Below are positions 9,807 to 63,458 of a DNA stretch of 64,000 nt, one piece after another. The DNA lies in assembly GCA_002205965.3 (NCBI GenBank), contig NADL03000638.1, positions 558,001 through 622,000 of the forward strand. The letters are read 5' to 3'. The notes under the pieces are model-generated. The model was not told the origin of the DNA and ran no database searches. It saw only the letters and a list, made by a program, of their open reading frames with translations. A program made the position numbers and the translations under genes. Each line of letters opens with the position of its first letter. Within the stretch, counting starts at the first letter, position 1. Source of the stretch: Kappaphycus alvarezii (lineage: Eukaryota; Rhodophyta; Florideophyceae; Gigartinales; Solieriaceae).

Positions 9807-10417
9807 ATGGCCTTCATCACCACCCCATTCCCACTAGGGAGAGCACCCGCACGTTCCCAATTTTTTCCCTCCACTACGCACATCACGAACCGTATTGGCG
9901 CATCATGCTCATTACATCGCCGTTCTCGTCCCGCCGTGGTGTGCATGGCCGCACCGTCTACCGCCACCGGCGGTCCCGCCCGAAGCACATTGGCGGATAC
10001 ACCACGCAAGGAATTCCTCACCCGGCTCAAACCGCTTGGTAAAGTCCGACTGATTGCCCGCAATGATGCCGCCATCATGGAGTCAATTGCCACCTTCGAT
10101 GGACTCTTCTTTGCTGCCATCCCCTCAGGGGAATACGCAAACATTATCGATATGTCTATTAATTTGGATATGCATCTTTTGTTGTCTGGTATTTCAGGGG
10201 CTAATTTGAGATTGGGGTCAGCCGATCTGCTAGCCGGGCCCCAACTTACGTGATTCGCATTTTGGGTAAGGACCGAAAGAGTGTCGTTTTGAGCGTTTTC
10301 ATGCAGTGGGATAAGGAACCAACAGACATTGCAACTGAGAGGATTGACGCTTGGAAACAGTTGAAGACAGACTATGCCGGGGAGGCGGCTGATGACACCT
10401 TTTTCTTCGACCCGTGA
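9807..10417 (+). CDS. Plastid-targeted ChuX/HutX-like haem-binding-type protein
   Basis: Chosen start is ATG 9807. Residues 1-47 look like a plastid transit peptide: a Phe at position 3, many Ser/Thr/Arg, almost no acidic residues, and a likely cleavage zone near VVCMAA. The mature part carries GKVRLIARNDAAIMESIATF and then DGLFFAAIPSGEYANIID and LDMHLLLSGISG, followed in the next frame by TYVIRILGKDRKSVVLSVFMQWD and a short C-terminal helix. This order (N-term strand, ESI.F.GLY.., Y.N.ID, F.L.L..I, Y.IRFL...G...LS.F..W) is how I remember the cyanobacterial relatives of ChuX/HutX haem-utilisation proteins, so the gene may have come with the plastid. A haem or tetrapyrrole role in the plastid is inferred. 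The frame changes by -1 near 10.21-10.23 kb, best explained by one base missing in the G run at 10214-10217. The gene is convergent with the phosphatase, about 140 bp apart. Confidence 0.6.
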
Positions 10418-10556
10418 TTTCATGATTTATGCGTTGTCGATAACTTTATTGGACGAGGCACCATAGTAAAGCGAAGAACGATGGGAGAGGGAGGTGCCTT
10501 TTAATTTTTTTGCCGCTACGGTTAGTAGATACAACCAAAACTTTTGCCTAACTCGT
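10418..10556. other. Short convergent intergenic gap
   Basis: 139 bases between two gene 3' ends. It presumably holds both 3' UTRs and polyadenylation signals. A T-rich run lies near 10.50 kb. Confidence 0.5.
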
Positions 10557-11909
10557 CTAATTGAACCTCGCAGAACCCTGTACCACGCCATCCTTTGTAA
10601 AAATCCGTACTGCCCCTCTCTTTGTGATTTCTATGGCCTCTGGGCGCCCCCATAAACCTTACTCATCCCAGTGTCAATCCTCCAAACCCTACCCCCAAGC
10701 CGAATTGATCCCTCTGGGCTGCGGTGTGTGGCCTACCACCATCCTCTTGGCGCCTACCATTTTCAAAGTTTCCCTCAACATTCCGCACGCGCTACTCTTT
10801 GTTCCTGTAGTCCCTAAACTCACCTTGGAATAGTCTCTTAACCATACCGGACTAGCACCTCCTCTCAACACCAATGGCAACTTACCCTTGCCCTTCAAAA
10901 ACGAAGACGTTTCCTGATTCAACTGATCCAACATGTCTACGGCCTCATCTTTCCCCCGCCCTCCAAATGTCAAATGTTTTGGCGTCAATCCACCATGGAC
11001 AAACAAATTATCGCCGACAACCACACTAACCTTTGCACGATCGCTCAACTCGCGAGCCAAGGGTCCACCCCTACACACACTCTTCGCCTGGCCCTCATCT
11101 CTGCGGGCAACTGACGTATCTCCCTCACCAAATCTCCGGGAATCGTGCTAACTGCACCACGGCCACCATTCCACCAACCTATTTCGCGTACCTTATCGCT
11201 TTTGGTACGGGGCCCTCAGCGGCCTCTGCAAAGTCCGCAAATCCACCCTTCGTTACATAACGAAAATCGAGACGCGAGTTCATCAACTCGTGATTACCTA
11301 ACAAAATGTGGACGCGACCCCGTGCTTCGGAGCAGTGTCTTGTAAGTGAAAAAGCAATTTGTAGATGTCACGCTCTCGGTTGCCGCGATCCATTTGATCG
11401 CCAACCTGGATGAGATGGGCAGAACCGCCTATCCAATTGTCTTCTGCATCGATTAAGCCGGCAAAAGAAGGGCGGAGCGCATGGCTTCGAGATCTCCATG
11501 GACATCGCCGAGGGCTATAAGTCGAGGGGGGCCGGGTAACGAAGGGGAGAAGATGGAGGGGGCGTGGAACTGGGGAAGTAAGTTCATCGAGGAGGGCGGT
11601 GACTGGGTTTGGCTTGGAAAATGAACGGGCGAAGGACGGGGGGATGAGGACTTGGAAAATAGACAGCAACCAGTTGGGCGGGGGATGTGAGGGTGATGGA
11701 GGAGACTGGGGGGGCGGATATGGCAGAGCGGCGGTGGAGGTGGCAAAAAGGGAAGGGGAAGTGGTTGGGTGAAGGGAAGCGGAGTTGAGGTAGGCATTTT
11801 TCCGCCGGCGGTATAAAGCTCGTTGGAAGTCGAAGGGAGATGAATACGGTGAAGACAAATGTGCGACGGTACGATTCATGCGGTGAAGGGAAGTCGCCCA
11901 CTGCAGCAT
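10557..11909 (-). CDS. Shewanella-like protein phosphatase (metallophosphoesterase)
   Basis: The minus strand carries all the metal-binding blocks of a calcineurin-like phosphatase in order: GDVHGD (11492-11509), GDQMDRG (11382-11402), GNHE (11287-11298), FVHGGL (10986-11003) and VVGHT (10725-10739). Between them run stretches typical of the plastid SLP1 type: LIDAEDNWIGGSA, then LMNSRLDFRYVTKGGF, GGPLARELSDR, VVGDNLFVHGG, GINSA and WRIDTGMS. The family removes phosphate from proteins using two metal ions, and the plant SLP1 acts in chloroplasts. The Ser/Pro/Arg-rich N terminus fits a transit peptide; ATG 11909 and 11879 are both possible starts. The blocks lie in changing frames. All six junctions between recognised blocks are -1 shifts, no catalytic residue is lost and no stop is needed inside a block, so missing bases in the assembly are more likely than decay. 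End set at the TAG after SARFN. Confidence 0.75.
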
Positions 11910-12016
11910 GAAAGAGCAGTTCAAGAAAAGCTGTGATCCGTGAAATTGAGTAATTTTTTGGAAATGTCGAACATTTTTGCATTAACAGAGACATTTCTTT
12001 CTTCCAGGGAGATAAA
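11910..12016. other. Gap between phosphatase gene and LINE relic
   Basis: Holds the phosphatase promoter region in principle. No clear motif seen. Confidence 0.3.
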
Positions 12017-15000
12017 TTGTACCACTCGCAATCCTCTGTCACTGTTCCTTCGCCATCCCCAATCATCTCTCACTGCATTCCCTTGCCGCTGCCCAATCCC
12101 TCTAACCCACGCCGCAAGCCAAATTCGCCCGCCTCTCCAACCTCTTCTGCGCTTAGAGGTACAAGCAATACTTCATCGAAGTGCTGCGGTCCTCCATCTC
12201 GTATGTTACGGCCCGCTATCCAGAGCTCGCCACGCCCGCCAAACCCGCCAACCCGCCTCTTCCAAACCCTCTCCTCCATCCCCTCCCCAAAACCCTGGTC
12301 CTGCCAAACGTCTCTGACCTTCAGGACCTGAACCAGATTCCCAGATGGAGGAAGCTTTGCCCCCAAGGCCTTCGATCTTGGAATAATGGTTGCCCCTCCG
12401 CTGAACCTACCCAACGATGTCCCCCCCCTCCATTGTCTTTGCTCTCCCCGTCCCCACCCTGCCCTATCTCCGGAACTCCCTCCGACTTCCTTCCCATTCC
12501 CCAGTGTCCAATCCCTGCAGCCGTCTCGCTGAGGCTCGCTCTACACAGGCGCGCACTGGCCACTCCACAAGCTCATGGCTCTCGCTAAATCGGTTCCACG
12601 CAAGAATAGCCGAGGGGAACCCCGAAACCGTCATCGCCCAAGCCTGCTCGCCTCCCTTAAGCGCAGGATCCGCCTAACACAACAGGGGCAGTGGTACCGT
12701 CTCCTTGACGAAGCTGGTGACGCCTAAGGCACAGTTCTCCACCGCAAAGCAGTCCCTACCCGCTCCCCACAAGACCCCTGCAAGCGGACGTTGCTCAACG
12801 GCTCCCCACACAAAGCCGCCCAAACCCTCACTGCCGCGGCCACACCAGTCCCGCCCACCGTGGCATCTACAGACGGGCTCTGCTCCCCCATTCCACACCG
12901 TCCCACTCTGTCAACCGAGCCGAAACAGGTGCCTTGCCCCGCCGTACAAGTTTATCGAGGCGGAAGTCCGCCGCCAGCTGCCACGAATCCCCTACCACAG
13001 CAGTCCTGGTGCAGATGGACTTCACCCCTGCATACTCAAAGCTATAGTGCATGCGCCGGCGGCGCTGAGCCCTCGAATTCGGCCCTCAAGTGGTTCACCG
13101 CATTTATCAACACCTGGTCGATGGAAACTGTCCTAAGGAGACTAGCGCGTAGCTCGCTAGTCCTACCCTCTTGGACCTGTCGAAAGATCTATGCTACTGC
13201 ATTCTCTGTCCGATCGCCATTGGCCTTGCCATCCGTCGACATGTTGGGCACCTGGTAATGAAGCGAATTCGGAACGGACAAAAGTTGGCCAACTATCTGC
13301 AGCCTCATCAACTCTGCGTAGGTGTGTCGTGTCGTGTGCTACGTAAGCCATTGTGCATGCCGCTGGGGCTCGCATCTGCGATCTGCAGGACAATGACCCC
13401 GCCCACATCCTCATTCAGTTTGATGCCCGAAACGTTCCGAAATTCTTTCTCAGGCTATCTGCCGTATCACCGCGGCTGCATATTGGGTCCACGTCCTCTA
13501 CGGGGCTCCTTCCCGCCTCTTCTTCGACTGGCACCTCATATGAGTCGAACTGGCACGCAACAGGGCGACCCCGTCGGCATGTTGCTGTTCGCTATTGCAC
13601 TCCACTCCTTGTGCAAGGCCTGGAATCCAATTTCCCCGCCTTCCCTTTGCACACATGGCACGCGGATAATGGGACTCTCATTGTTTCCGTCCCACATGCA
13701 TGGGCCGTTCTCCAGTATCTGCGCCTGAACAGCCCGAACCTCGGCTTCCATGTCAACCTTGTTCCCCACAAAACATCGGCCTGGTGGCCCTCTCTCTCAT
13801 CTCACCCCCTCCTACATGACCTGCCATGCGACGTCCTCTCTTCGAATGCTATCACGGTTCTTGCTAGCCCGATGTGCACCTCGAATGCATGCAGTTCCAT
13901 GGCCACCAAAGCCCTACAGAAGGCAGAGTCAATCTGGACATCCCTCTCCTCCATGAACGAGCTTCAGATCTCTTACCATATTTTCCGGTTCTGTGCCTCC
14001 TCGTGTCTGGTTACGTACTTGCTCCGCTCAACCCGGCCGCACATTACCTCACCACTTGCTAGAGCTTTTGAAAAGGGGCTGCGAAGGGTTTTCGAGTAAG
14101 TTCACCGGAAGATGTCCGACATCGCATGGCTTCAAGCTACGCCGCCTTTCCGCCATGGGGGCCTCGGCCTCACGCCATGAACTCCCATCAAAATCATGGG
14201 GTACACAGTCTCAAATGTTACAAACATGCCCCTCATTCGATGATTTCCGCTCACAGCCCCGCACATACGCATATCGCAATGCTTCAGGGCACACCCTATT
14301 TCACCCTGGCCATGAGTTTGGACCTCCCTGCAGAACTTATACTAGAGACAGTCTTATCGCTCTCCCATCACCTCAACCACAACGCCGCCTGTTCACTCCA
14401 GGGAGAAATCACCCATCACTTGCACCTCTCCCGCCTCGCCGTGCTACACTCATTGGTCTCTACCGCCTCTTCTCCACACCTTTTTTCTCGTCTGGGCTCT
14501 ACTGCCTCCTCCACGGCTTCCGCCCCTTACCAACACTCCGCTGCCTTCCACCGACCTGCGGGGAGATATGGCGCATGATGGGCGACCTTCGCTTAGGCAA
14601 CCCAATATTGTGCGGCCTCCAGCGCTGCCCGACCTGCCTTTAAGGTAACTGTACTGTTCCCCCTCTCCTCGACACCATGGGCCATTACGCAGCAACTTAC
14701 AAAGGTGGTGTGGGTGCAGCGCGCCGCCACAACCGTCTTCGAGATATTGTATACCACGAACTTACAGGCCCGTCCATTTCCATCATCGTCCTTCAGGAGC
14801 GGGTCTTCGCCGCTGAGCTCCACAATAGCCCAGCCGAGCGGCGCGCACTTGACCTCTTCATCGACGACCCTTTTTTCGCGCCCACCGCTCAGGGACTAGA
14901 TGTAACGATAGTCCGCTCTCACTCCGCTCCATCTCGCAACTGGGCAGGTGGAGGTCTTTCGGCACTTACCTTGGTTGCACAGCGGGAGCGGAAATTCTGC

Positions 15001-15310
15001 GAGATACATGTTACGATGGCGCTAAATATGGCTACGATGTGGCCACTCTTTTACACTGTAATGACGCCGTTGCAGCTGAACCTCCTATGATCCCGAGAGG
15101 TTGCTGCAACTAAGGGAGCCCGGGAAGCGCGAGCTGCCGCCAATGCGCCGTCGTTCTGCCGCCAATGCGGCAGAACGACGGAAACTGAGGGACTCTGCGA
15201 CGAAAATCGCCGCCATTCCTGGCCATGCTTCACCTGGACGCCCGCTTCTCGGCTGGCAGTTTGTCCCGCTAGCCTTTGATTCCCTGGGATGCTCATCGGA
15301 GACCACATCC
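12017..15310 (+). mobile_element. Decayed LINE with RT and restriction-like nuclease remains
   Basis: Plus-strand pieces of one non-LTR retrotransposon polyprotein. Order: a Pro/Ser-rich N-terminal part (12.0-12.6 kb); RFHARIAEGNPETVIAQA; RT entry block FIEAEVRRQLPRIP..SPGADGLHPCILK (12.95 kb); ALKWFTAFINT; PIAIGLAIRRHVG (13.2 kb); ILIQFDARN (13.41 kb); GTQQGDPVGMLLFAIALHSLC (13.55 kb); a catalytic-strand block WHADNGTLIVSVPHA in place of the usual YADDG (13.65 kb); FHVNLVPHKTSAWWPS; then at 14.6-14.95 kb a CPTC...GHYAATYKGG.GAARRHN zinc block and a LDVTIVRS block like the restriction-like endonuclease. The frame changes at least six times and stops interrupt it. It belongs to a different lineage from the 57-61 kb LINE but has the same domain order. 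5' end uncertain; it lies close to the phosphatase start. Confidence 0.65.
15148..15181. repeat. Perfect 15-bp hairpin in the LINE 3' region
   Basis: CCGTCGTTCTGCCGC (15148-15162) is followed by the four-base loop CAAT and its exact reverse complement (15167-15181). A 14-base direct repeat (15134-15147 and 15157-15170) overlaps the left arm and loop, so the hairpin may have arisen by a template-switch copy. Confidence 0.8.
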
Positions 15311-15639
15311 AAGGTGGTTGACAAGTAATGCATGCGGCCGCTACCGCAGCACGTACCGAAAACTCTTATGCGAAAGTATCCTCTCGGCTTTATCAAAAGC
15401 TCAGCTATGCCATTTGGTCCACGTGTGCAGCTTCAGCGATTGGTCGTAGCCTGCAACATGCAGAAGTTTGCCTCCCGCTCGTGGGAAAATGGGGGGTGAT
15501 TTAATATTTGAAAGATTTGGTCGGTCGTGGCAAGACCATAGGTCGCTGTCAACAAAAGCCAATAAAATGAGCGCCTAGAGCACTCACGAGGTGGCACTAT
15601 ATAGACGTATCACTTAGCAGCTCCCGTTTGGAGGAAAGC
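15311..15639. other. Junction between LINE and Copia fossil
   Basis: No gene recognised. A GAGGTGGCACTATAT string near 15.59 kb also occurs near 9.49 kb, a short shared repeat of unknown origin. Confidence 0.4.
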
Positions 15640-17760
15640 AGACTTAACATCAATCTTAACTAAGGTCTATTTGAATATGACATAGAGCGACAGTAGAATA
15701 CATATTTCAAGAGGAGGGCAACGCTTTAAGTCAGTTCGTAGATGCTCCTTCTCTCCGTCCTTATTTCCGTGCAATGCAATCCTAGCTTTGCACATTAAAG
15801 AGTTATCATCCAATTGCTTGATTTTGTACATCACATGGCTGGTGATAATGTTGGACACTTTCGGAATGTCCGAAACATGAATTTCCTTGACTTATTGCAT
15901 GAACCCATCTTGTTCTTTCTGATAGGCATTCTGCAAGGTCATTTACTGTAGTGTCACCCATCAGCGACGACTTATCCCGCATAACGTATTAGCATCGTGG
16001 ATGTAACCGACTACATCTTCCATGTATTAAAATAACCCAAAATTCCCCATTCTGCATAACGATGGAAGGTAGTCCTTGTGTTTTGGCTGAGAAAAAATTC
16101 TTTGTGTCGAAACTTCTCAAAGTAAACTTTTGTCGGCTCTTTTTCTTTAGATGTCAATTCAGAACCAGGAGAAATATGTACTTCAATTTCTTCTAACTAA
16201 TCATTGCGTTGTTCATCAGCATTGGGGTCATCCATGGGCCCATGTGTAAATATTTCTAAGATTTCAGCTTCTCCATAGCAGTGGTACCCTGAATCGGAGG
16301 CTCTGGTTTCGTGGGTTTAGTAAATGAACAATTTGGTTCCGATTGAAAAGTTCCATATAATGTATTTGGGATGGCAGACGGTTTAGCACTATCTTGATTG
16401 CACTTGATGAAATAATCGAATGAGGTAAGATTTGATCAGTGTTATCAAAAAATACTCAGTACACCAGAGGATGGGTCTGGAAGGATAAGGGCGTTCCCAG
16501 TTAAATGTTCGATTATACATATCTGTCACATTCTTACCAATTGCCCAATGCGATGAATCTTGAATTACTAGGTGTCTGATAATCACGGGAGTATTGTTAG
16601 ACGTGGTAGCACTAATAAAGACAGAGCCAAGCAACAGCCTCGAGCAGCTGGCATGTGTTACAAAGCCATATTGCCAGTTTGGCCTATCTGCCACTGATTC
16701 GGGAAGCGATTCATATGTTCCATCAAAAGAGATAAAAGCGAGCTGTGCTATGAGCTTAAGCTCTAATTCTCCAATTCTACTGAATGGAGCACCTTCGTCT
16801 GGCTACGGGCCAAGGAAATCTGAGAATTTCAGTGACTTCTCTGATTAAACGAGATAGAGTTAAGATGTTTCTTTTTCTCACCATACTTCCATCATCTTTA
16901 GCATTTTCATCTTTGTCGAAATTATTTTTCGGTATAAATTGCCTTCATTATCATGATCTGAGGCCCAGTGGCCAACTTTTGAGCAAAGCTTACATACTAA
17001 CGGCACTTTCAACTCGGCCAATTGCTCAGGTGATAATTTCTTCTGTTTCTGTTGCGATTGCTTTTCATGTAAGAGTTAGTGACACCTAAGGAAGTAGTTT
17101 CGATGCTGCACGCTTCTTTCGGTCTATCACACTGCCAAATGACTCCAGCTACAGACTCATATGACACACTCTTTAAACAAGTGTAAGTGTCAGCATCAAT
17201 CCCACCCTCTTGCTGTCTTGGAGAAGTAGCAGCTATGACATGCACCCTTTATTGATATCAACGTCTGTATTGGCCAAAAAAAACAAACTTTACAATACAT
17301 GTTGGTAATTCGGCTTCACTATATATTGAGTTAAGTTTGGATGCTTGTGCTTCAAAACGTAACTCAAAGTTTTTGAAGAATTCAGTAGATCCTCTCTTTG
17401 TTTTTAGCACTTACTGAAGCATGCTATACACGTCATTGAATAAAACGAGAGGGTCACGCTTGAACACGGCCTTGAAGATATCTTCAAGTACTTCTGATGA
17501 TTGAATAGTAGCATTCGGGATCTTTCTCGATAGGTCAAGAGCTCGTCTATACAATTGTGACTGCAACATTATGCCTTGCAAGTCACATGGTATCTTTTTG
17601 CTGTTATCAAGCCGCAATTTGTCGTGGAATGCTTTCCACGGCGTCACGGTAGGGTTCTTGGTCCCTTTCCCATCTGTCCACCGAATTTTCTGATGTCTCA
17701 TGTGAACTTGGGGCAACTGGGCAGGTCTAGGCCCATAACGACAAAGAAATCAAAGGCTGT
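15640..17760 (-). mobile_element. Ty1/Copia-type retrotransposon fossil
   Basis: Minus-strand parts in family order: a gag-like segment (17.4-17.7 kb), a zinc-knuckle-like stretch CKLCSKVGHWASDH (about 16.95 kb), a protease-like region (16.4-16.7 kb, HLVIQDSSHWAIGKN), and a Copia reverse-transcriptase segment (15667-15858, SHVMYKIKQLDDNSL then KARIALHGNKDGEKEHLRTD). The element is clearly broken, with many breaks, and no LTR pair was found. It appears old. Confidence 0.65.
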
Positions 17761-38821: not shown

Positions 38822-40355
38822 CATGGACAACGCGCAAATGTGTGTTGTCAAATGTGTGGGCGACGCGTCTTGCGTTCCACACCAACGATGAGTTTGTGGA
38901 AGCTGTATTTTTTTCAGATTCCTCCGTTCAACCGGCGGGCTCATCAAATACATCTCCGCTCGGCAAACCTGACGTCATGCAGGCTGACTTTATGTGTCGC
39001 GCCATCTACATGCAAACACCTCTGTCCCATTCAAAATACCCAGCCTCTCCTCTTGCCTTGCCTCTTACATTCACTCGTCTGCTACCTCTACCCTCAGTTA
39101 ACCGCCTCCATCGTATTGGCTATGCTACGCCAACCGGATCCTCCGCCTCGACGCTTTTCCCCTCACCAGGCAAATTTTGACCCTTTCTGGTTTTATTGTT
39201 CTCCTGTCCTCTTTTCTGCTTGCTTGTCCCTCACACGCACGCATTCACCCTCCCCAATTCCACTTCCCAATGCCAAGCCTCATGAAAAAATAAAAGCACT
39301 CACATGTTTTCGGTATCATTTTCGCTCCGCTTTAACCCCATTGCAGCAATTCTCCACCATCAACTGCACCGTCGAACCGCCTCATAACCCGTTGCGCCAC
39401 AAATTCAGAAGCAATGAAATGCATTCATTCATGACAATGCCAGCATTGTTGGCATAACAACTATAGAAAACAACCTCCACCTTTTAAACTGTCTACGCAC
39501 CACACTCAAATCAAGGTGAAAAAAATCATGCGAGATTCTCCCATATTTACCGTATCCCGACAGACATCCCATGCGCAAGAACCGTGGCTAAACATCAACC
39601 TGTCGGAATTAATGGAGAGGAACAAAACTTCCATTCATGACACCGCCAGATCATCTCTTGGGCGTCACATCAAAAAAGTAGTCATATGCTCCCCTGCACC
39701 TACTCCCAAGGTCTGCATCATCATGACGTTATTTCGAGTGAGCCTTTTGAATGCCGGTGTTGAGGTGCTTGCCTGGAACCCGTTTTTTCCTTCCTTACGC
39801 CCGACGTATGTTAATTAACGGCGGTCCATAACGCTTCTTCCCAATCGCGCCAACCGCGTTCAAACTAGTCACTACATGCACTTGCATCCCGACCAGCTCT
39901 CACCAGCCGAACCCCTCCCGACTCGGTGCTCAGAATCTCAGTGCCGCACTTGCGCGTCCTCACTCGTGTCACGATCTCAGGCTGCACGCTTTGTACTGTA
40001 CTGTTGCATTCAATCCCCATGTTGACGCACTCACCTCACTAATCAACCACTGGTCAAGCATTTTCTTACCCGCTTACAAGCCTACCCATTACTACCGCGT
40101 GTACAACCTCCATGCTTCCGTTCGTCGTTTCTTGCTTGCTTTACACGCTCTGTTACACTGACTCAAACCACTGGCGCTTTTCACCATCATCTCACTCTAC
40201 GCACTAAACCTATGCAATCCTACCCATCCAGGAGAACAAAACAAACTTCCTTCAACCCACCTCTGCAAAGTGTCAGGCAACGCAACAAAAAGACAAAACA
40301 TTATATGGTAACAAACAAACAAACACAAACACGTACACAAACACGTTCCACGAGC
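38822..40355 (+). other. Unassigned C-rich stretch with discontinuous open frames
   Basis: Plus-strand open frames at 38777-39457, 39516-39818 and around 39.84-40.19 kb (for example VDALTSLINHWSSIFLPAYKP, then LHASVRRFLLALHAL) look partly coding but share no frame and no known motif. They may be remains of a host gene or an element. A GTACTGTACTG copy lies near 40.0 kb. The last 200 bases before the kinase stop are A/C-rich and are probably its 3' UTR. Confidence 0.3.
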
Positions 40356-42158
40356 TCAAACCTCCAATCTACCCATAGAAAACTCCCCGAATCCGTCCGC
40401 ACTCAAACTATTCGCTCCATACACAGCCATTCCTACCGGCGCGGCTGGAGCCATCGGCACTGCTCCAAACTCTCCATCCTCTAGATCATCCGTCCTTAGC
40501 ACATCCCCTTTCATATCTCGGCTACAATTTGGCACCCTAGCCCTCCCTCTCGTCGAGAATTGCGCAAGCTGTAAGCTCAATGGTTCCGTGGCAGCATCGT
40601 ACTGCATCCGCCGCCTCTCCCGCGCATCACCCACTGCCTGATTGGGCATGGAACTGGCTGTCACATCACTCTCATCTACCAACCACCTGTGCTCTAACGC
40701 TTGTGACGCAGTAAGTCGCGATGCCGGGCTGGGATCCAGCAATCCTCTCACGAGTGCTTTCGCATCCCCGGATATCCCCTTCCACTCTTTGTCCGGGAAC
40801 TTCACGCCCGCTCTCAATCTCCTCATGAACTTTTCGTCCGTATCTCCATAAAATGGAAACTTTCCAGCTAGCATCACATATAGCACGACTCCGCACGCCC
40901 ACAAATCCACTGGCTTGGAGTATGCAACATTATTTGCAATTTCCGGGGCGAGATAGTACGCTGTGCCACATTGCGAACGCATCACTCGATCTGACCCATC
41001 GTCGGAGCGTCCGACAAACTTGGACAGTCCGAAGTCCGTCAATTTCACCCTTAACGGCCAACTCTGGTTCACACACAGAATATTCTCCGGTTTCACATCC
41101 CTATGCACGATACCACGGGAATGTAAGTACTGCACTGCTTGCAAAACCTCACGGATCACTTGCTTTGAATTTTTCTCGGACAAGTGATCATTTTCTGTGA
41201 TCATATCCAGCAGTTCACCTCCCGCCAAATACTCCATCACCACATACGTCTCCCTAGCCGAGTCAAAGATATCGTAAATCTGCACTACGTTTTGATGATT
41301 TAGCATCCCCAAGACCGCGAGCTCGCGATCAATCAGCTTTGCATGCTCCGTATTGGACCTCTCCAGTACTTTCACGGCGCACAGCTCGTTCCTCAGCTTA
41401 TCTCTAGCAAGGAACACCTCAGAATAAGCACCTCTTCCAATCAGCTTTCCAAAATCGTAAAAGTCCGTCACACTTCCCGACACCGCCTGCAATGCCTTAA
41501 TCCACTTTTCATGAAGCTCATCCGTCGGTGCATAAAAGCTCGAAAAAGTCTTATTCATCTTGAAAACAATTTGCCGTTCCTGACCAGACGAGACCTTACT
41601 TCCCCTGACATTAACCATCCATGTTGGCTTGGAAGTCTCGCTGCGCGCGTTGCTCAGGATACTGCCATTCAATTCAAAAAAGCGGTCAATCCTCGAACCC
41701 AAACGCCTGCCCTTCTTCGACAACCACCCTGACACGCGTACATTAGAGTTAGAATATCTTAGCGGTGGTGCATCGGTAGAATTGACACTGTTCGACATGC
41801 CATCCTGAAAATTGGCTGCACGAGCCCCAAAAACTTCCCTCCTTCGACGCCCCCATTTGAAGACATCTTCGTCAGGACGGCGGGGAATATGAGAGTGCGG
41901 GTCTGCGGCACGTCGGGCTGCGGAACCGGCCAAAATTCCTTTCAGACCCATGGAGAGACCGATACGAGAACGGGACCCATCGATGGGTGGATGACGGTGT
42001 TCTTCACGATCACGTTGCTTGTTACTGTGATTCTTCTCGACGGGATCTGGGTCATGGGCGTGCACCGGTGAGTAGTTAGGGTTGTGATGATGGTTTTGCG
42101 AGTGGTTGAGGGCGGCGTTGCTACGACGGTTGAACAACTGAGTTTTGCCGCGTCGCAT
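40356..42158 (-). CDS. PH-domain Ser/Thr protein kinase, CaMK-like
   Basis: A single uninterrupted 600-codon ORF starting at a true ATG (42158), with no sign of introns. Residues 1-140 are basic and His/Asn-rich, without a domain. A pleckstrin-homology-like domain spans about 142-228 (VSGWLSKKGRRLGSRIDRFF to HEKWIKALQAV). The kinase domain spans about 233-494: Gly loop GRGAYSEVFLA (241-251), Lys263 in AVKVLE, Glu279, HRDVKPEN (352-359), DFGLSK (375-380), CGTAYYLAPE (397-406), DLWACGVVLYVMLAG (418-432) and the closing Arg of SRLTASQALEHRWL. All catalytic residues are present, so it should be active. Activation-loop and subdomain style is CaMK-group. The PH part suggests recruitment to phosphoinositide membranes. 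The C-terminal 100 residues are low-complexity. Substrates are unknown. Possible relatives are PKD-like or protist PH kinases. Confidence 0.9.
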   Translation of the reverse strand: MRRGKTQLFNRRSNAALNHSQNHHHNPNYSPVHAHDPDPVEKNHSNKQRDREEHRHPPIDGSRSRIGLSMGLKGILAGSAARRAADPHSHIPRRPDEDVFKWGRRRREVFGARAANFQDGMSNSVNSTDAPPLRYSNSNVRVSGWLSKKGRRLGSRIDRFFELNGSILSNARSETSKPTWMVNVRGSKVSSGQERQIVFKMNKTFSSFYAPTDELHEKWIKALQAVSGSVTDFYDFGKLIGRGAYSEVFLARDKLRNELCAVKVLERSNTEHAKLIDRELAVLGMLNHQNVVQIYDIFDSARETYVVMEYLAGGELLDMITENDHLSEKNSKQVIREVLQAVQYLHSRGIVHRDVKPENILCVNQSWPLRVKLTDFGLSKFVGRSDDGSDRVMRSQCGTAYYLAPEIANNVAYSKPVDLWACGVVLYVMLAGKFPFYGDTDEKFMRRLRAGVKFPDKEWKGISGDAKALVRGLLDPSPASRLTASQALEHRWLVDESDVTASSMPNQAVGDARERRRMQYDAATEPLSLQLAQFSTRGRARVPNCSRDMKGDVLRTDDLEDGEFGAVPMAPAAPVGMAVYGANSLSADGFGEFSMGRLEV

Positions 42159-43010
42159 GGCGATAAGTTGTGGGGACGAGGTAACCGATTGGACGTCCTA
42201 GTGGGAAAGAATGAAGACGGAATAAAGAGGTACGCAAGGAAGCAAAGAAAATTGGTTAATATTGAGGGAAAATGTAGGGATAGGGAGTTGAGAAAGGTGA
42301 GAGTGGAGTGTTTGACGTTTTAGTGGACGAAATGTGAGCTGCAGAAGAGTGGGCAGGAGGGAGGGGGCGTTGGTGCGAAAGGAAGGGTGTTGAGCGGAAC
42401 AGGGAACGGGGGAGTGTGGTGGAGAGTGGGGACTGCGAGACCAGGGTGGAAGGCGATTGGAGGGGTTTGAGGTGGAAGTTGCGAGAGAAAATGGGGACGG
42501 GGAAAGGTTGTTCAAAGGCGGGCGGAGATGAAAGCGAGGAATGAATATTGAATATTAATATTATGTGTAAGGATGGATGTGGTGAGATATGCGGCGAATG
42601 GGGAGGTGTAGCGAGAGGTGCTAGAAAGGTTGAAAAGCGTTAGGGCGGCGGGTTGAGGAAAGGGAGTACGGTTGAAGTTTTAAGTGTAGTGTGGTGTAGG
42701 TAGGGGCAGAGGTGGCGTGTGCGAACGAGATGGTTGGACGGGGACAGGGGAGGCAGGAACGAAGGAGAAATGAGGACTTATTTGGTGAGTAGCGACAAAG
42801 GGGCTATGCCAATATGGTGGTTGTGCGGGGGTGGATATGGAAGCGGGTGGGCGGGGGGAATGGATGAGGGTCAGTGATGTCAAAGGAGATAGATAAAAGG
42901 CGGGCGTTGGTGGGTATCACAAGATTTGTTCTGATGTAGATTGGTACCGAAGAAATGTGGTAGGGGGTGAGGCAAAGTTGGACGCGGGTGGGCAGAGGGC
43001 ACAACAGGGG
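42159..43010. other. Purine-biased tract upstream of the kinase
   Basis: From about 42.33 to 43.01 kb the plus strand is strongly G+A rich, so the kinase's sense strand is C+T rich. It probably covers the 5' UTR and core promoter. The open frames seen here come from this bias and look non-coding. No TATA box was picked out. Confidence 0.5.
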
Positions 43011-44100: not shown

Positions 44101-44105
44101 AATGG

Positions 44106-53627: not shown

Positions 53628-56530
53628 CTAGACAACCGCAATCGACTCAAAAAGGTATGCCGATACAGCGATGGGGGAGAAACTAAGCTCCCTAAAGGTT
53701 ACCTCCAGGCCAGCCATCAAGCAGGCCGCATTGGACATGACGGCTGCTGCAGCGTGCCTTTGCATCAAAACCCCCCGAACCTTTCCGTACGTCTCCAATG
53801 CCCTCACGGCCACATTCCTTGCCACGTCATTTAGCACTGCACATGCATCCGGGTGCCAATCTCCAAGAGGGGAGATTGGCACAGGCACGAGCCTACCTCT
53901 GCTGGAGGTCGCGATAAAAGATTGATATCTTCTCTGCTTTGCATTTCGCGCGGCATTCAGATAGGGCATCGGGTTGAAGGCCCTCACTCTCCTGTAGGAA
54001 GGAGCGAGGAAATTCACGAAGGTAACATCAAAGAAGTCGGTCCCTCCGCTGCTTCCCATTGTCTGGATATCGGGTCTCGTGCGGTGGAGACCATGGCGTG
54101 GCTCTACGACAGGATGACGAGCAGCTCTTGCGAGGCCTTCTGCGAGAAGGGTTACTCGGCGATCATGTCGGTTGATCCTGTGGGCTCCATGCAAGCAATG
54201 CATGAGATGATCGCCATGTACATCGAGTGTTTCCGGGCAATTCCTTCTCGGGCATGGCGTGCCAGGGTGAAAAAGTGGGACTTAACTGTAGTATTGAAGC
54301 CACACCAAGAATTCTCGAGGTTCAATGCTTGACTGGAGTCCGGGGCATGGGGGACAATGCACCTATTCCTTAGCTCCCGGGAGGGCCATATATGCGCGAA
54401 ACGCCTGCCTCCTGGAATCCCCAACAGGAATTCGTTCTTGCACTGCCTCATGGATTGCGTCCGTCAACGTCTTTTGCAATGGTGTTTTTTGCGAGCAAAT
54501 TACACTGAACGGGATAATCCTAGACTGCAGGCAAGAGGTCGACCACCTCCGATGGGAGTCTGCAGCTGCTTCGTATGTTCCCAGCTCCCTAATAGGAGCT
54601 GGGAGCAAGGTCTTCCAAAGCTTGCTAGATGATGAGCTAGAAGCCAAGAATGCCGCGGCCGCGATGGCGATGTTGTTCGCGGAAGTGAGCCAGACCCCAA
54701 GAGATGGTTTTTTCGTGTCCTTTGGTTTGACCGGCACCTGGAGTTCTCGGAATACTTCCGAGTCCAGAACTCCCCCTGCGAATTTTCGGACACAGTCCTC
54801 CATCATCCTGTCGAACTGTTCCGCTCCTTCTCCGGTGCAAGACGGGGAACTACACGCAACAAATAGCCTACTTTGCGAACGCCAAAACAGTTACGCAGTG
54901 GTTGGAATGCTACTTGCCTATTCTCAAGGTCAACAATGATCTCGGGGAACGGTCTGAGGGATAAGAGATGGTTCGTAAAGAACCGTGTGGTGTATTCCTT
55001 AGTACCGACGGGGGCGTTTAGGACAGAAGTACCCTCGCTGTACTCTTGCTTAATCCCGTCAAGGTAGAGACTCTGTACTGACACTGGAGGGGCTCTAGGC
55101 CACAAGACGTGCACTTCGGCAGCGACAAGTGCAGTCCTCGGCTTTCAGCATCCACGGAGCGAAGTTCTTCGATCACTTTGACAAGTTGGTCGTGGCGCCC
55201 GATAATGTACCTGTCATCGTGGTACCATAGTTGAAGTAACAACTTTGCCAAATCTCTGTCTTCCTCTTCCTCTGAACTGGAGAGTTCTTGTATTTTGAGG
55301 AAAATAAGGTGCAGCACCAAGTCGAAGAGGAGGCCCCCGAGGTTGTCTCCCTGTTGGGTCCGGCAGATGCTTCTTATGATGTGACTGCCTATCCACAGGA
55401 ATGCGGGCTAGTTTGCGTAGCAGTATGAGACCCAAGGCTGTAACTCTGGGAGTAGCTGTCTCACCGCGGTCAGAAAAGCGGGTCTGCTGCACATATTAAA
55501 AGCGTTCTTGAGATCGGCGGTCAACAGCCCATACGCTGGATCACTTCCGTACTCGTGAACGACTCTTCGGATTCCGTGCACGACTGTGTCGGTACCCAAC
55601 TTTGTGGCGATACCCACTTGGAGGGGATGGAAGTAGTGTGCCGCCTTCTGGGACACTCGCTTCATTTAGCAGCTACCGACCAATCTGCGCAGCGTCTCCC
55701 CACCGCCAACTGGCCTAGGTGACATGTATTTCTTCGCCAACGGGGTTAGTGGAGCACCAGCGATCCAAGGAGCGAGAACGGCTGGTGACTTTCCAGTTGC
55801 TAAAACATTAACAAGTCTCGTAAGAGCTGTCAAAAAGCCGGAAATCCCCGATGAGGATGGACATCTTAGCAATTCTATCAGGGAGCGTGGCTTTAGACCT
55901 TAGCCTCCGGAGAGGATTCTGGTTTAAATGCCCTGATAGCACCGAGGACTTCGTCTTCAGCGATCGGTTGGAAACTGCAGTTGGTAGAAACTGTTCCACT
56001 GACTAGAGATGGTTCATCGGGGGCCTGCTGGGGATTCTTATCGATAAGGGTATCGATAACATCACCGGTAGCTGGTAGAACGCCTCACGAGCGCAAGGCT
56101 TGTGCAGCCTTTCCATACGCACATTCTTTGGCCGGTTTGATCGCCCTTTTGATATTTGACCTGTTGCTGGTCTGAAGTGAAACGAGCTGGTGCCGTGCGG
56201 TTTTTAGGCTGGTCGAGTGCTTGCGCCCATAGTGTTTAAGTGCCCCGCGTTCTATAAATCTATTCGGTCCCTCATTTTGTTCGTAATAGAGTGCCATCGG
56301 TATTCACTGGAGCAGGAATCTGACGAGTGAATGTTCGTAAGCATAACTGCTGGGAACAGAAATGTTTTTGTGAGTGCCTGAGTTGCTCGTGAATTCTCAG
56401 CAAGACAAGCGTTCACTTGTCCATCGACTTTGCATACGTCTCCGCTAAACAACCGCGGAACTTTGTCGGTATACGCGACATGACCGGCGTGTGGGCTGTG
56501 AAGAATTCTTTTAGAGAGGCAGAGACTGTT
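53628..56530 (-). mobile_element. LINE with restriction-like nuclease, degenerate
   Basis: Minus-strand order matches the 57-61 kb LINE: QALTKTFLFPAVMLTN (56.3-56.4 kb), AKECAYGKAAQALRS (56.1 kb), LVNVLATGKSPAVLAPWIAGAPLTPL and GETLRRLVG (55.7-55.8 kb), GLLTADLKNAFN (55.5 kb), LLLQLWYHDDRYIIG, the RT catalytic strand (55.2 kb), SEGTSVLNAPVGTKE and CFGVRKVGYLLRVVP (54.9-55.1 kb), GGVLDSEVFRELQVPV (54.8 kb), a zinc block C..NC...DVHGDHLMHCLHG....RHD (54.2 kb), RPDIQTMGSSGGTDFFDVTF nuclease core (54.05 kb) and GDWHPDA. The frame shifts four times, always -1, and two in-frame stops lie near 54.29 and 54.36 kb, so unlike the other copy this one is truly decayed. The start is probably lost. Confidence 0.8.
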
Positions 56531-56751: not shown

Positions 56752-56850
56752 CCCTTCCATTACTCACAGTGAACCAACCCAATTTACCAGTAAACCAACC
56801 CAAGCATGCATCCTAAACCAACCCAAAGAAAACCAACCCATTGATTCCCC
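56752..56850. repeat. CCAACCCAA-type degenerate repeat
   Basis: AACCAACCCAA occurs four times in about 90 bases with short variable spacers. Related ACCCAATTTACC strings lie downstream of the LINE at 61.01-61.08 and 61.51-61.55 kb, so the repeat brackets it. Confidence 0.75.
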
Positions 56851-57420
56851 CTTCCCCTCGCCGCCCACGCACGGGTGTGCCACGCTTCTCCCCGCGTCGG
56901 CGTACCGGGTGGCCCCTCTCCTGGATCGGCGCCGCCCCCTTCCCGTTTCACGCCGTTCCCCAACTCTGACCACACTTGTCCGACCTTTACATTTTCTCAC
57001 TTCTTCTCCCTCAATTTCAGCGATTTCTTTGGATATTCACATCTCTTCCTGGACAAGTTCTACTCAGCACCTCCGTAACCCTCCGCTACTCCACAACTTC
57101 CGCGATCAGTGACGCGCCCTGGTCTTCCTCGTCAACGAACCGCACTGCTCAAGGTCTGAACTCCGTTGGCAAGTTCAAAATTTCAAACGGTCACTTTTTC
57201 CCAGTCCTGCATTGCTGGTCATTCACTAGCGCCACGTGGCCACCTGGTATCAAGAGGCCTTGGTGACAATTACAGTATCGGAAAGGGAGGTCTGAAGTGC
57301 ATACCGACCGTACAGGACAGGAAGTCCCGAGGATTGGCATACAGTATTGTAGTAACTCCAATCGCTTAGTAGGGTGCACTGCTTTTAGGGCCTCAGGGAA
57401 GGGAAAATTTGTTACCAAGA
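56851..57420. other. Probable 5' UTR or flank of the LINE
   Basis: C-rich at first, then mixed. A GTAC-type cluster near 57.30-57.35 kb. No recognisable protein. Confidence 0.35.
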
Positions 57421-60400
57421 ATGCCCTCTGCCAGTACAAGTGCAGACGCGGTGGCCCGTCACAGACCAGGTGATCCTCGAACATGGCTATGCCCCAAAGC
57501 ACTTCTTCCGGCGTCCGAGCGCCCCCTACAGCGCCCTCACCACTGTCCCTTGGGTTGTGCATCCATCACGGCGACTACCGTGCATGGGTTGGTTTCACAT
57601 CTCCGCCAAATGCACAAACCCGGCAAGAGCTCCACCAGTAACCACCCCAAGCGCACGCAGGTTCCAAGCCTGCAGGCCTGCTTATCGTCTTATGGATACT
57701 GGTACTGTTATGCGCACAAACGTTACATGAGCTCAACGGTTGGGCGTAAGCTCCAAAATGGCCTTCATTCCTATACATATCGGCCATGCCCGGAGTGCGG
57801 CGACAGGTTCTCAACCCCTCCCCGGTACACTCCGCTCTTACCCACGCAGCTTCGCTCCACTCCTCGAGCACCATCTGCATCTCGTGTACCGAACGAGGTT
57901 ACACCCCTTGTGGCAGCTCCAACCTCAACGAATCCACTCGAACCACAGCCCATCCCGGATGCCACTCCTCCTCCGCCTTTGCCCACCACCGCTCCTCCTC
58001 CGCCTGTGCCCACCACCTCTCCCTCCTTGAACGGCCCTAGGAGACAACCGCTTCCCCCCTTGCACACAATCTGCACTACTCACGTCCCGCTAGCGCAACA
58101 CATACCGCGACGTGAACGTCAGCGGATTTCAAGGGAGCTAGCTCTTGTCCTTGGACAATGCGCGGACGCACCACATGGTTCTCCTCAAGCTGTGGAGGCA
58201 TTCACCAAGTTGTTCCTATTCCCGTCCGCGATCCTTGCCAATCCCAAGCCCTCCACCCTCTCAACCCTCGTTCCGGGCACAGCATCAAATTCCCGTATTT
58301 TTGCTGAACGCATTCAACTGTGGCGTGATGGCCAGTATGAAACTTTGATGCGAAGGGCAAACGCCTTGGCAACGTCCCGCCCGTTGCATAAGGCAACTGA
58401 AGAGGAACAAGCGGAGATCAACAAACGGCGCGCCCTGAGGCTTGCAAAGGAGGGCGCTTACGGCAAGGCAGCGCGAGCGCTGGGATCTTCAGGGATCGCA
58501 TGCCCCTCCGCAGAGGTGGTTTCCATTCTTCGGGAGAAACACCCACAGCGCTCTCCGACTACGGAGTCGTACCAACCCGCTTCCCCTGGCTCGTTGCCGG
58601 CTTGCCCCCACTTAACGCCAGAACTTGTTCTCCGGTGCGTTCGGGGCTTTCCAAGGGGTAGCGCCGCAGGGGATCCGGACTCCGCCCAAACCACCTTGTT
58701 GAGCTTTTACAGGTCCCACCAGTTGTCAATGGTGGACGAAGCTTGCTAGCTGCTCTAACTAGTGTGGTCAACTTGCTAGCCAACGGGAAGGCCCCTGCGG
58801 CTATATCGGCATGGATCGCAGGTGCGCCGCTTACGGCACTCCTAAAACCAGACGGCGGAATCAGGCCGATCGCCGTGGGCGAGACCTTACGTCGCCTGGT
58901 GGGAAGATGTTTGCTGACTCGCATTTCCGAGAAGGCTTCCCAATACTTTCGGCCACTGCAGTTGGGAGTAGCAACGTCAGGAGGATCTGAGGCAGTTGTC
59001 CACGCTGTACGGCGACTTTATGAGGAGCATGGCGAATCGGCAGAGTATGCACTGTTAACCGTTGACCTTCAAAACGCATTCAACCTGGTCAGCCGAAGTG
59101 CGTTTTTGAAGGAGGTCGAGCAGAGGTTCCCAGAGCTCTTACCTTGGGTCAATTACACGTACGCGGTAAACCCGGGTCATCTGTGGTGTGGGGATGATAT
59201 GCTCCGGAGCGTGGTAGGCGTGCAGCAAGGGGATCCCCTGGGTCCACTTTTATTCTCCCTTCTGCTGCAAAAAGTGACGCGGGAACTGAAAACCCGCCTG
59301 GAAAATGTGGGCGACGCCACAGGCAGGCCTTCTGCACTCCTGCAGCTGTGGTACTTGGACGATGGGTACATAGTGGGCACCCACGAAGCCATTCGAACGG
59401 CACTAGAGTTCCTCTCTTCCGTGGAGGTGCGCGCTTTGGGTTTGCACCTCCGCATGGATAAGTGTGCCGTCTGGTGGCCAACCGCTCCCCCCCGTCTGTT
59501 CAGCAGTCCTTCCCAGCCGACCTTCGGCAGGACTATAGTGAAGGGACACAAGTGCTCCGCGCCCCAATCGGATCGGACCTATTCGTGGAGCGGGAGTTCT
59601 CAAAGCATGTCGCTTCGCTGAAGCCTCTCCTCAGCGCTTTGGTAACCCTGGAGGATACTCAAGTAGCTCTCCATCTACTACGGACCTGCTTCGGCGTATG
59701 TCGCATTAACTACCTCCTACGTGTAGTTCCCCCTCATTCTACTGCTAAAGGGGCTGGGGAATTCGATTCCGCTGTTGAGGCTACACTGCGGGAGTTGATG
59801 GGCGGGGTTCTGGACAGCAATACTTTTCGGGAATTGCAACTCCCTGTGGCGCCCTTCGGCCCCCTCAAGCCAACTTTTGGCATTGGGCTTCGCTCTGCGA
59901 AGCTCAGTGCGGCGGCTGCGTTCCTTTCCTCCGTGTCCCTCACGCGTGCCCTTTGCTCCACCCTTCTGGCTGTGCTACCGAACACTGCTCTTCATTCATA
60001 CAAATCCGCAGTTCGGGCGCACGACGACTGGAAGACTCAAGTGGCACCCGAGAATGTGGTCCGTTTCACGGCTATCGACTCAGTGCAGAGGTTTGGGCAG
60101 GGGCAACTCGTCCGCCCAGTTGAGGAAAAGGCCTTTGATGACATGCCGAAGGGAGATGAGAGGACTGTTGCATTCCGAGCCTCGTTGTCAGTGGAGGGTT
60201 GCAAGGACTGGCTGTCATGCCAACCGGCTCCGGGGTTGGGTACCTACATCCCGGACCGCAATTACAAGACGTGGTTGCAGTTCTATTGCAGGGTGCCACT
60301 GTTTCCTCCAGCTTCGAAATGCCACAAAGGGGTATGCACGACCCTCATGGATCAGTATGGTGACCACGCGCTGTGCTGTGCCTATGGATCCACACGCGGG

Positions 60401-60886
60401 TGGCGGCATGACTCCCAGACACGTTTGTTTGCTGCAGATCTCTCCAAAGCTGCCCGACACCCTGTCCTCGAGCCGCCACAACCCGGCCATGCAGTTCGCC
60501 CGGACATCAAGGCGCTTGGAGAGAACGGGGGCACGGACTATTATGACGTAACCGTTATCCATCCCCTGACCCCCGCCCGCCTTCCCTCCCTGGCGCGATG
60601 CCCACTCAAGCCCCTTAACCATGCTCGCCTGGGCAAGGACACTCGCTTTGCCGAGTTAATACGTTCCAAGGGTCCTGGGCATCGCTTCATTGCGCTTCCA
60701 CTCTCCACGTTGGGGGGCTGGCACCCTTCCGCTCGGGACTTCGCCAACCGGGTTGCGACTGGTATTGCCGCACGGGCAGCCATTCCGATTGCTGATGCGC
60801 AGCGAACATTGTTCGCTCGTCACGCGGCGAGACTCGTCCAGAATAACGCCAGTTGTTTGTTGGAAGGAGTTTTGAGCGACACTTAG
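57421..60886 (+). mobile_element. Nearly whole LINE with C2H2 finger, RT and restriction-like nuclease
   Basis: ATG 57421 to TAG 60884-60886, about 1,150 codons. Order: C2H2 finger (CPLGC...HLRQMH, 57.54-57.61 kb); a CPEC..RF pair (57.79 kb); Pro-rich linker; AFTKLFLFPSAILANP (58.2 kb); AKEGAYGKAARALGSSG (58.46 kb); RT blocks GGIRPIAVGETLRRLVGR, LTVDLQNAFN, VQQGDPLGPLLFSLLL (59.22 kb) and LWYLDDGYIVG with both catalytic Asp (59.36 kb); thumb; zinc block C....C...DQYGDHALCC.....RHD (60.31-60.42 kb); nuclease core RPDIKALGENGGTDYYDVTV (60.50-60.56 kb); GGWHPSA near the end. The single-ORF plan resembles R2/NeSL-type LINEs, which nick the target with this nuclease and copy their RNA onto the cut. 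Only two -1 frame jumps interrupt it, at a T run (58705-58708) and a seven-C run (59487-59493), with no nonsense codons, so the real copy may be intact. Confidence 0.85.
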
Positions 60887-61081
60887 GCCGCAACTTGAAA
60901 TTGTGTATACAGTGTATTCCAGAGAACCTCCGTTCTGAGGGTATGTACAGTAAGTGGTTACCTACTTACAGTAGTCCTAGTGTGCGATTGCTCTTAGCCG
61001 GAAAATTAAGTATACCAACCCAATAAAGTAAACCCAATTTACCAACCCATTCAAGTAAACCCAATTTAACCCAATTTACAG
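60887..61081 (+). mobile_element. LINE 3' UTR
   Basis: Begins GCCGCAACTTGAAATTGTG and includes TATGTACAGTAAGTGG, a GTCCTAGT...GCGATTGCTCTTAGC segment and an ACCAACCCAA-rich end. The same segments recur twice further on, which defines them as the element's tail. Confidence 0.65.
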
Positions 61082-61290
61082 TGGCACCCTTCCGCTCGGG
61101 ACTTCGCCAACCGGGTTGCGACTGGCGTTGCCGTCACGCGGCGAGACTCGTCCAGATTAACGCCAGTTGTTTGTTGGAAGTAGCTTTGAGCGACACATAG
61201 GCCGCAACTTCAAATTGTGTATACAGTGTATTCCAGAGAGCCTCCGTTCTGAGGATATGTACAGTAAGTGGTTACCCTATTTACAGTAGT
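61082..61290 (+). mobile_element. Short second copy of the same LINE tail
   Basis: Repeats 60719-60960 (GGCACCCTTCCGCTCGGGAC onward, through the stop codon and into the 3' UTR) with few substitutions and one internal deletion of about 55 bases. It is a 5'-truncated insertion of the same family, or a local duplication. Confidence 0.8.
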
Positions 61291-61465
61291 TTTTTTTTGT
61301 ATGGGGGTTAATTTACTGTGGTAGATTTGTGGGTTGGTATCCAGTAAATTTGTACCGGAGCGTAGATATCGTATCATTGTCAAGCCAATTGCGAAACCGT
61401 ACGATGCGTCGAAAGCTGTGGATGGCACTCCAATCTACCAGAAGGTGGAAGGGAGGCCAGCCGTT

Positions 61466-61556
61466 TACAGTAGTCCTAGTCTGCGATTGCTCTTAGCAGG
61501 AAAATTAATTATACCAACCCATTCAAGTAAACCCAATATAACCCAATTTACCCCCT
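61466..61556 (+). mobile_element. Third copy of the LINE 3' UTR end
   Basis: TACAGTAGTCCTAGT..GCGATTGC followed by the CCAACCCA/ACCCAATTTACC tail matches 60967-61080 closely. Together with 61082-61290 this makes a broken duplicate tail split by about 170 bases of other sequence. Confidence 0.7.
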
Positions 61557-61591
61557 TTTCCTCTCTGATCGGGTGCAAATGACTACACCTC

Positions 61592-62105
61592 CTAAGCAGA
61601 TAGCCAACCGACTGTCTTCGTTGTTATAGTCCGCGATGACCATCCAGTGCCAACAAACAGTCTCTGAAACGCGGATTCGTTAAACGAGTATTCTTTTGTT
61701 GGTGCCAGCAATGTTACCATTGATGGAAAGTCCTGTTTGCAGGCAATTTTAGCTGCCGTGCAAACTTGATTTTTCCAACGGTTAAAGTATGTGATGCCAG
61801 TGGGAAATGGTGACCTTTTATGACTTAAATGCTTTACGAAGGGACCGTACGGCCCCGTCTGGACATATTGGGGTTCAACATAATGCCAGAACTTCGGATT
61901 CATATCCCTGATGCCGAAATTTTATGATCACTATATCGCCCTGTAAAATATGACCGTTCGTTAGTTCGGCGCACGTGGACTCTTGTCAATTCTAAGTTGA
62001 TGAAAAACATGTACACGTTGTCCCCTGCCTGCCCACTGAGTTTGACCGCACGAGGTGGGCTTATACTGGCGCAGTAAACCCTTGAATTTGGGGTTCAAGA
62101 GAGGG
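61592..62105 (-). other. Unrecognised coding-like minus-strand stretch
   Basis: An open frame of 103 codons (61592-61903) reads KFWHYVEPQYVQTGPYGPFV, then FPTGITYFNRWKNQVC and ACKQDFPSMVTLLAPTKEYS. Upstream another frame gives NPKFKGLLRQYKPTSCGQTQW. The composition looks like real protein, perhaps part of a transposon ORF, but I cannot name a family. Confidence 0.35.
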
Positions 62106-62320
62106 TCGAAGGAATCAAAAAAAGGCCCTTTGATCACTACATCGATCAGTAGGGGTTCTATACTCTACCCTGTCTAGCGTCATACGTACTATGCATCTTT
62201 AAGGGTCTACATTCCTCCCTTCGTCTATTCCTAAGTGTAGGCCCTCGTTGAGCTCCATTTGTTGCAGGCTGGAGCCGCTTAGCTTTCCTCGTAGGCCTTT
62301 GTGTATACCTGTCCAAAGGC

Positions 62321-62365
62321 GGTTGTGGTGGAGGTTGCTGTGGTTGCGGTAGAGGTTGCGGTGGA
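62321..62365. repeat. GGTTGYGGTRGA degenerate minisatellite
   Basis: Four imperfect units of 9-12 bases. On the minus strand it would encode a Pro/Gln-rich run. Confidence 0.7.
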
Positions 62366-62828
62366 CCTACACCTTCGTCACCGTTTTCTCCTGCTTCATC
62401 CCTTGCGTCTTCTCTTTCATTCCCGCTAGCACAAGAGCCATTTTCCTCACCATTAGAAAAATTTGTGGAGTTTCCAATACAGTCTGTTAGGCGCAGATTT
62501 TTTTTGCCGCCGTCATCTACAGGCCTATAGTTTACTGTACTACCTCTCCTTGTCCAAATTTGCTTATAGTTCCGGTCCTTCCTCGTCCTCCCTGAACCTC
62601 GCTTATCATTACCGCGGTCCTCTCCAAATTTACTTCCATTTTATCTAGATATTTTTATACTGTATCTACCCCTCTGAATCGATCCTGAATCAAGTTCTTT
62701 TTCCCTTTTTGCTTACCTCCTCCTCCAAATTCGCTTTTTTGAGAAAAAGGGCGCAAATGCACTACTACAAAAATCCCTTGCAGATTTATTTTACCTATTT
62801 CTAATCTATAGAACCTGCCCAAGGAGCC
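62366..62828. other. Promoter-side flank of the acidic-protein gene
   Basis: Pyrimidine-rich with T tracts. No other gene recognised. Confidence 0.3.
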
Positions 62829-62836
62829 TATTTAAA
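62829..62836 (+). promoter_or_regulatory. TATA-like box
   Basis: TATTTAAA 90 bases upstream of the ATG at 62926, followed by a C/T-rich stretch suited to a short 5' UTR. Confidence 0.5.
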
Positions 62837-62925
62837 CCCCTTTATTCCGAGTTTTAAACGTTCCCGATCATTTTGCTCAGCACTCCTCTCCTCCTACACA
62901 CCCTGCTCACCCCTTTTCCAGAAAT

Positions 62926-63458
62926 ATGACATCTATCGCCCCTCTGTCCCTATCTCCAGAAAAACGCCCTTCGTGTCCCATCAATGGCCTTCGTCTCGCC
63001 CTCTACGGGCCAATCGATACCGACGACTACATCCTGTGGCAAACAAAGAAGCAAATCATCGAGTTCGTTAGCCGCCTCTTCATAGAAGAAGAGGCGAGGG
63101 AGGTAAGTGCGAGTGAGACTGAGAAAGAAGAGGAGGATAGCGGGAGTCCTTTGAGGAATGAGTAGCCCCTGAGCTAGTGTACGAGACTCAGGAGAAGAAT
63201 GGGGAGGATGAAGAGGATGAAGAGGATGAAGAGGAGGAAGAGGAAGAGGAGGAGGACGAGGACGACGTGGATGAGGGAACAGAGGGAATGGAAAGTGTTG
63301 GACTAGTGGGGCCTGGACTGGAGAGTATGGAACAGGTGGTGCCGACGATGGAACCGGATGGAGATATCTTTAGTAGTCTAGATATCTCCCAGGAAAATAC
63401 GATTGCATGCATTTTCCAAGGGTTCTTCGTCTCCAAAAATAGTCAGATCAGAATCTGA
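62926..63458 (+). CDS. Small acidic protein, function unknown
   Basis: ATG 62926 follows a C/T-rich leader. The first 79 codons read MTSIAPLSLSPEKRPSCPIN, then LRLALYGPIDTDDYILWQTK and IIEFVSRLFIEEEAREV, a compact folded-looking N terminus. The next part, in the -1 frame from about 63162, is a long Glu/Asp run followed by Gly/Met/Pro-rich sequence and DISQENTIACIFQGFF. The two open parts overlap by only a few bases, so one missing base near 63160-63165 would make them a single protein of about 177 residues. I do not recognise the family. Acidic runs of this kind occur in nuclear and chromatin proteins, but that is only a hint. If no base is missing, the gene is a 79-residue protein ending at TAG 63163-63165. 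Confidence 0.5.

Follow-up and report, generated by a model that had tools for sequence, protein, structure and literature searches.

Single-base breaks in the reading frames of a Kappaphycus alvarezii assembly: probable consensus errors in genes and transposable elements

Features of the window

The window (the whole stretch of DNA analysed, 64,000 nucleotides) covers positions 558001–622000 of contig C634 in an assembly of 336.0 Mb and 884 contigs from Kappaphycus alvarezii, which we take to have been built from PacBio long reads. No match to rbcL (PF00016) was found in it. Its features are listed in Table 1. The relic near the start of the window presumably belongs to the Harbinger family, and the metallophosphatase-like gene is, we assume, of the Shewanella-like phosphatase type; no Pfam match was found in the latter in the single piece of it that was scanned.

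Table 1. Genes and elements of the window with the state of their reading frames
Feature	Position	Strand	Reading frame and remarks
Harbinger-like relic	5100..6531	-	apparent -1 step near 5930 and in-frame stops (frame view only)
ChuX/HutX-like gene	9690..10510	+	one -1 step; PF06228 at 23.4 bits, just below the 25-bit cut-off
Metallophosphatase-like gene	10560..11740	-	six frame steps
12-15 kb LINE, start within the three-copy region	12035..13330	+	window-specific losses and gains
PH-domain protein kinase	40356..42197	-	613-aa open frame, unbroken in the window
LINE	53706..56156	-	three visible -1 steps
LINE with many near-identical copies	57373..60886	+	-1 steps at the G run 58669-58672, then at the C7 tract 59487-59493
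Acidic-protein reading frame	61900..63458	+	one apparent -1 step (frame view only)

A preliminary description of this window had read the direction of the shift wherever neighbouring protein blocks sit in different frames, and had found it to be almost always -1. On the minus-strand LINE, for which four such steps out of four had been counted, every visible step is indeed -1, but piecewise comparison gives three of them rather than four. As a separate observation, A or T runs of ten or more bases are absent throughout the 64 kb, which is at most suggestive as a count from the window alone.

Copies of the window on two other contigs

Contigs C16 and C9 each carry a further copy, at 97% identity, of the region from 8.9 to 13.4 kb, in which lie the ChuX/HutX-like gene, the phosphatase and the first part of the 12–15 kb LINE. 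The three contigs (C634, C16 and C9) are collinear and carry both of the window regions that were searched (9700–11900 and 40300–42400). In a three-copy alignment of 8.9–13.4 kb, one-base losses and gains number 18 and 4, respectively, among the changes specific to the window, 25 and 3 among those specific to C16, and 8 and 10 among those specific to C9. The loss bias is thus strong on the window contig and on C16 and absent on C9. On C9 and on another contig, C36, one-base gains, in many cases of G or C, are at least as frequent as losses; these may represent a different mode of error that varies by contig.

The one step in the ChuX/HutX-like gene is a -1 step, as originally reported: after position 10202, the window is one base shorter than both of the other copies. 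The loss had been placed in the G run at 10214–10217, but it is at 10202 instead that the copies differ. In the phosphatase, where six of six steps had been read as -1, there are six steps, five of which are -1; the other, after 10695, is a loss of two bases that reads as +1 and is found in the window only. The step just above 11453 is present in the window, C16 and C9, and that at 11208, which lies in a run, is present in the window and C16, while those at 11317, 11087 and 10646 are found in the window only. At 11317, the window has C4 where both other copies have C5, so that the C run at 11318–11321 was correctly named as a site of loss; the C run at 10692–10696 was also named in the right place, with two bases gone from it and not one. 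In the 12–15 kb LINE, compared up to 13.4 kb, the predominance of -1 steps that had been described is matched by five window-specific losses (after 12035, 12075, 12261, 12561 and 12936), but the window also has three extra bases of its own (at 13125, 13229 and 13327).

The 1.8-kb kinase had been singled out as clean, with the remark that any error would then have to be uneven. In the window, the gene is indeed open for 613 aa, and the unevenness is confirmed, but it lies between contigs and not between genes: the copies of this kinase on C16 (99% identical) and C9 (97% identical) are both broken, with longest open stretches of 167 aa and 192 aa, respectively. Two of the kinase losses, at 41301 and 40728, are common to C16 and C9, and both are in runs.

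Losses at columns where copies differ

In the three-copy alignment, 18 of the 25 losses on C16 fall at columns in which the window and C9 carry unlike bases, against a background of 187/4467 columns (4.2%; P = 2.6e-20). For the kinase, the corresponding proportions of single-base losses at differing columns are 3/5 for C16 and 0/5 for C9. None of the 18 window losses or the 8 C9 losses of the three-copy alignment is discordant in this way, as the other two copies agree at each site. For the window, such agreement is expected if its own allele is the one that differs, but it is no proof of this, and the differing-column test says nothing for window or C9 losses.

For the majority of differing sites, C16 shares the base of C9 as far as approximately 12.5 kb and is mostly of the window's type thereafter. 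Six of its losses at differing sites lie within the 12.5–13.0 kb bin (window-equivalent coordinates). Judged from this alignment, the pattern of C16 is as a merged or recombinant haplotype would give.

Losses common to more than one copy, which count against an error, are those at 11208 (window and C16), above 11453 (all three contigs), at 41301 and 40728 in the kinase, and in the gene for CCT gamma (discussed below). The four of these that can be pinned to a site (11208, 41301, 40728 and CCT gamma) are all in runs, and the same run may have been undercalled repeatedly.

The 57–61 kb LINE

Both steps in this element are -1, in agreement with the preliminary description. The window copy was aligned with eight of the best-scoring other matches (n = 9), and more diverged copies were compared as three short pieces. 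The G run at the first break (58669–58672) is one base longer in 6/9 aligned copies, and it has a length of five bases in 70 of 78 copies with exact flanks (43 of these 78 rows gave coordinates only, with lengths derived from the coordinates). This G run is the short run concerned: at the T run 58705–58708, where the loss had been placed, the nine aligned copies agree. Among the singletons in the nine-copy alignment, there are 23 one-base losses and 2 one-base gains. Columns with a loss are also polymorphic by substitution more often than columns overall (5/28 versus 36/3602, P = 6e-6, in these nine near-identical copies).

The C run 59487–59493 does sit at the second frame break, and its length is identical in 9/9 aligned copies. 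Two of three diverged copies (94–95% identity) also have C7, while the third is without the preceding base; over 83 copies with exact flanks, the length is 7 in 54, 8 in 21 and another value in 8. This tract may reflect a run that is in truth longer and was undercalled, genuine variation through slippage, or a genuine change of frame. It is very unlikely, from the sequences compared, that the break is real in the sense that the RT and C-terminal halves of a recently mobile element would lie in different frames, with slippage on the C tract joining them. Undercalling shared by the copies gains in likelihood from the conserved CCT gamma gene, both copies of which step by -1 at the same G run. 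Of the five runs to which losses had originally been assigned, the two C runs in the phosphatase (11318–11321 and 10692–10696) are thus right, and the G run 10214–10217 and the T run 58705–58708 are wrong.

The proteins of the plus-strand and minus-strand LINEs are approximately 35–50% identical, and in both the frame changes after the RT block. The minus-strand element shifts frame within approximately 10 codons of the place that matches the C7 tract (55096–55111 versus 59487–59493).

Direction of frame steps in conserved families

Four conserved families were collected by a profile search of the same genome: PF00118 (CCT/GroEL, 59 rows), PF00012 (HSP70, 29 rows), PF00133 (class I tRNA synthetases, 39 rows) and PF00562 (Rpb2, 18 rows), for a total of at least 145 rows, as the lists are lower bounds. 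These 145 rows gave 78 steps between neighbouring pieces, from which 6 with a shift of 0 and 13 with an excess of more than 30 bases (introns or missing parts) were set aside. Of the 59 usable steps, 47 are -1 and 12 are +1 (P = 5e-6), and in 34 the spacing falls below the profile distance by exactly one base. The count is still 47/59 when nested pieces are omitted, and an earlier count that left out 34 of the 145 rows gave 48/60. Contig C36 is opposite in direction, with 4/5 steps being +1.

The original statement that frame breaks are nearly all -1 is thus partly confirmed: there is a real bias in direction, beyond what chance would give, and it extends across the genome.

CCT and HSP70 genes

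The CCT complex requires eight different subunits. Open copies are present for the alpha, delta, epsilon and eta subunits. Among the matches found, there is no open copy of gamma, zeta or theta (for each of which both copies found are broken) or of beta (for which the single copy found is broken). Two more broken matches, which stand outside this assignment to subunits, lie on the minus strand of C447 and on C770. For seven subunits, the two copies are 92–97% identical, flanks included, and the substitutions between them are distributed 109 : 11 : 2 over codon positions 3 : 1 : 2 (6 of 128 being ambiguous). The even spread over codon positions that is expected of pseudogenes was not found in these seven pairs; because the substitutions are so strongly constrained, these CCT genes are not pseudogenes.

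The missing bases follow the same codon position. In the CCT pairs, 11/12 one-base losses that lie outside runs hit the third codon position; with one HSP70 pair added, the proportion of lone-base losses at this position is 12/14, and with the window phosphatase added it is 14/16 (P = 1.2e-5). Statistically, this share is no different from that of the substitutions (167/208 at position 3, P = 0.75), where the 208 include 2 from a GroEL pair in which a frame could be followed for 7 codons, too few for use. The broken copies of CCT delta and eta have 4 extra bases and 1, respectively, which were scored as gains and not as losses. The HSP70 pair added here, on C497 and C27, is itself less constrained, with substitutions of 62 : 17 : 15 at positions 3 : 1 : 2, and the HSP70 pair on C540 and C813 has zero indels. 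A -1 step common to both copies of CCT gamma lies at a run of six G, and the sequence around it is identical in the two.

In all, diverged copies were seen for seven of the eight CCT subunits, along with four HSP70 pairs (14 loci compared). Uncollapsed haplotypes or homeologues may be present in this assembly, and the haploid genome would then be smaller than 336 Mb.

Cause of the frame breaks

Single bases are absent at sites that differ between copies and in short runs, and this is the case in essential genes, in LINEs and in one bacterial-type gene. On comparisons of the assembled sequence with itself, we regard the frame breaks as consensus errors of the assembly and not as biology, with a probability of roughly 0.94. 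The breaks are most likely not a real feature, and healthy genes would then look broken. That the assembly has systematically lost single bases had already been proposed as the cause in the preliminary description, and this is supported, indirectly, by the losses relative to the sister contigs and by the bias in conserved genes, with runs being only part of it. Long reads from different copies would have been merged into one consensus, with the caller dropping a base where the reads disagree and probably also undercalling some runs. Stretches dominated by one haplotype would remain clean, and for this reason the amount and direction of error would vary by contig.

Plain run-length miscalls in long reads, with no mixing of haplotypes, would account for the enrichment of LINE loss sites in runs of at least three bases (13/27 sites, where such runs make up 639 of 3601 bases) and for the positions of the steps at 11317, 11208, 58669–58672 and in CCT gamma, all of which are in runs. 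However, the other 14/27 LINE losses occurred away from such runs, and miscalls of this type would not predict that losses coincide with differing columns or with codon position 3. Run-length miscalls contribute but are insufficient alone, and as the whole explanation we consider them unlikely.

Neutral decay of pseudogenes and dead elements under a deletion bias is highly improbable. A bias towards small deletions is known from many genomes, and the Harbinger relic does contain in-frame stops, but the same breaks occur in the strongly constrained CCT genes, with four subunits having no open copy among the matches found, and the near-identical LINE copies show the excess of one-base losses over gains described above (23 versus 2). 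That the host bypasses the breaks through programmed frameshifting or through RNA editing that inserts bases is barely credible. Were the sequence correct, essential genes carrying -1 steps would depend on such decoding, and the few break sites common to copies could be fitted to it. Against it, the listed gaps by construction have the base in one copy and not in another (and are not common to all copies), losses fall at third codon positions and at columns in which other copies disagree, and dnaK on the bacterial-type contig C556 has the same kind of break (one case, for which a real mutation is possible).

C556 is most likely bacterial: it carries dnaK, which is broken by a one-base -1 step, as well as an Rpb2_6 match and an MreB piece. 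Bacterial-type genes (dnaK, mreB and groEL) were seen on C556, C571, C569 and C562, which are likely to be bacterial sequence in the assembly.

If the frame breaks are consensus errors, anyone working from this assembly may score essential genes as absent or as pseudogenes and misread its transposons. To spot haplotype-merge errors, the codon-position-3 test and the differing-column test offer an easy route that needs no reads.

Comparison with known cases

An early version of FALCON is described as having merged haplotypes and thereby placed indels at nucleotides differing between them (PMC5632298, which we take to be Korlach et al. 2017). The present assembly was probably made by such merging of haplotypes. 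The two cases are alike in that indels lie at nucleotides differing between haplotypes and genes appear broken; they differ in that the point is made in PMC5632298 as a remark with data not shown, whereas here the coincidence of losses with differing columns and with codon position 3 was counted.

False frameshifts in a collapsed assembly of T. brucei are reported to have been fixed by error correction and phasing (PMC8445201). As would be the case here, the collapsed long-read consensus of a heterozygous eukaryote yielded false frameshifts. The examples described for T. brucei involve repeats of unequal length and nearby variants, whereas in K. alvarezii single disagreeing sites appear to be enough.
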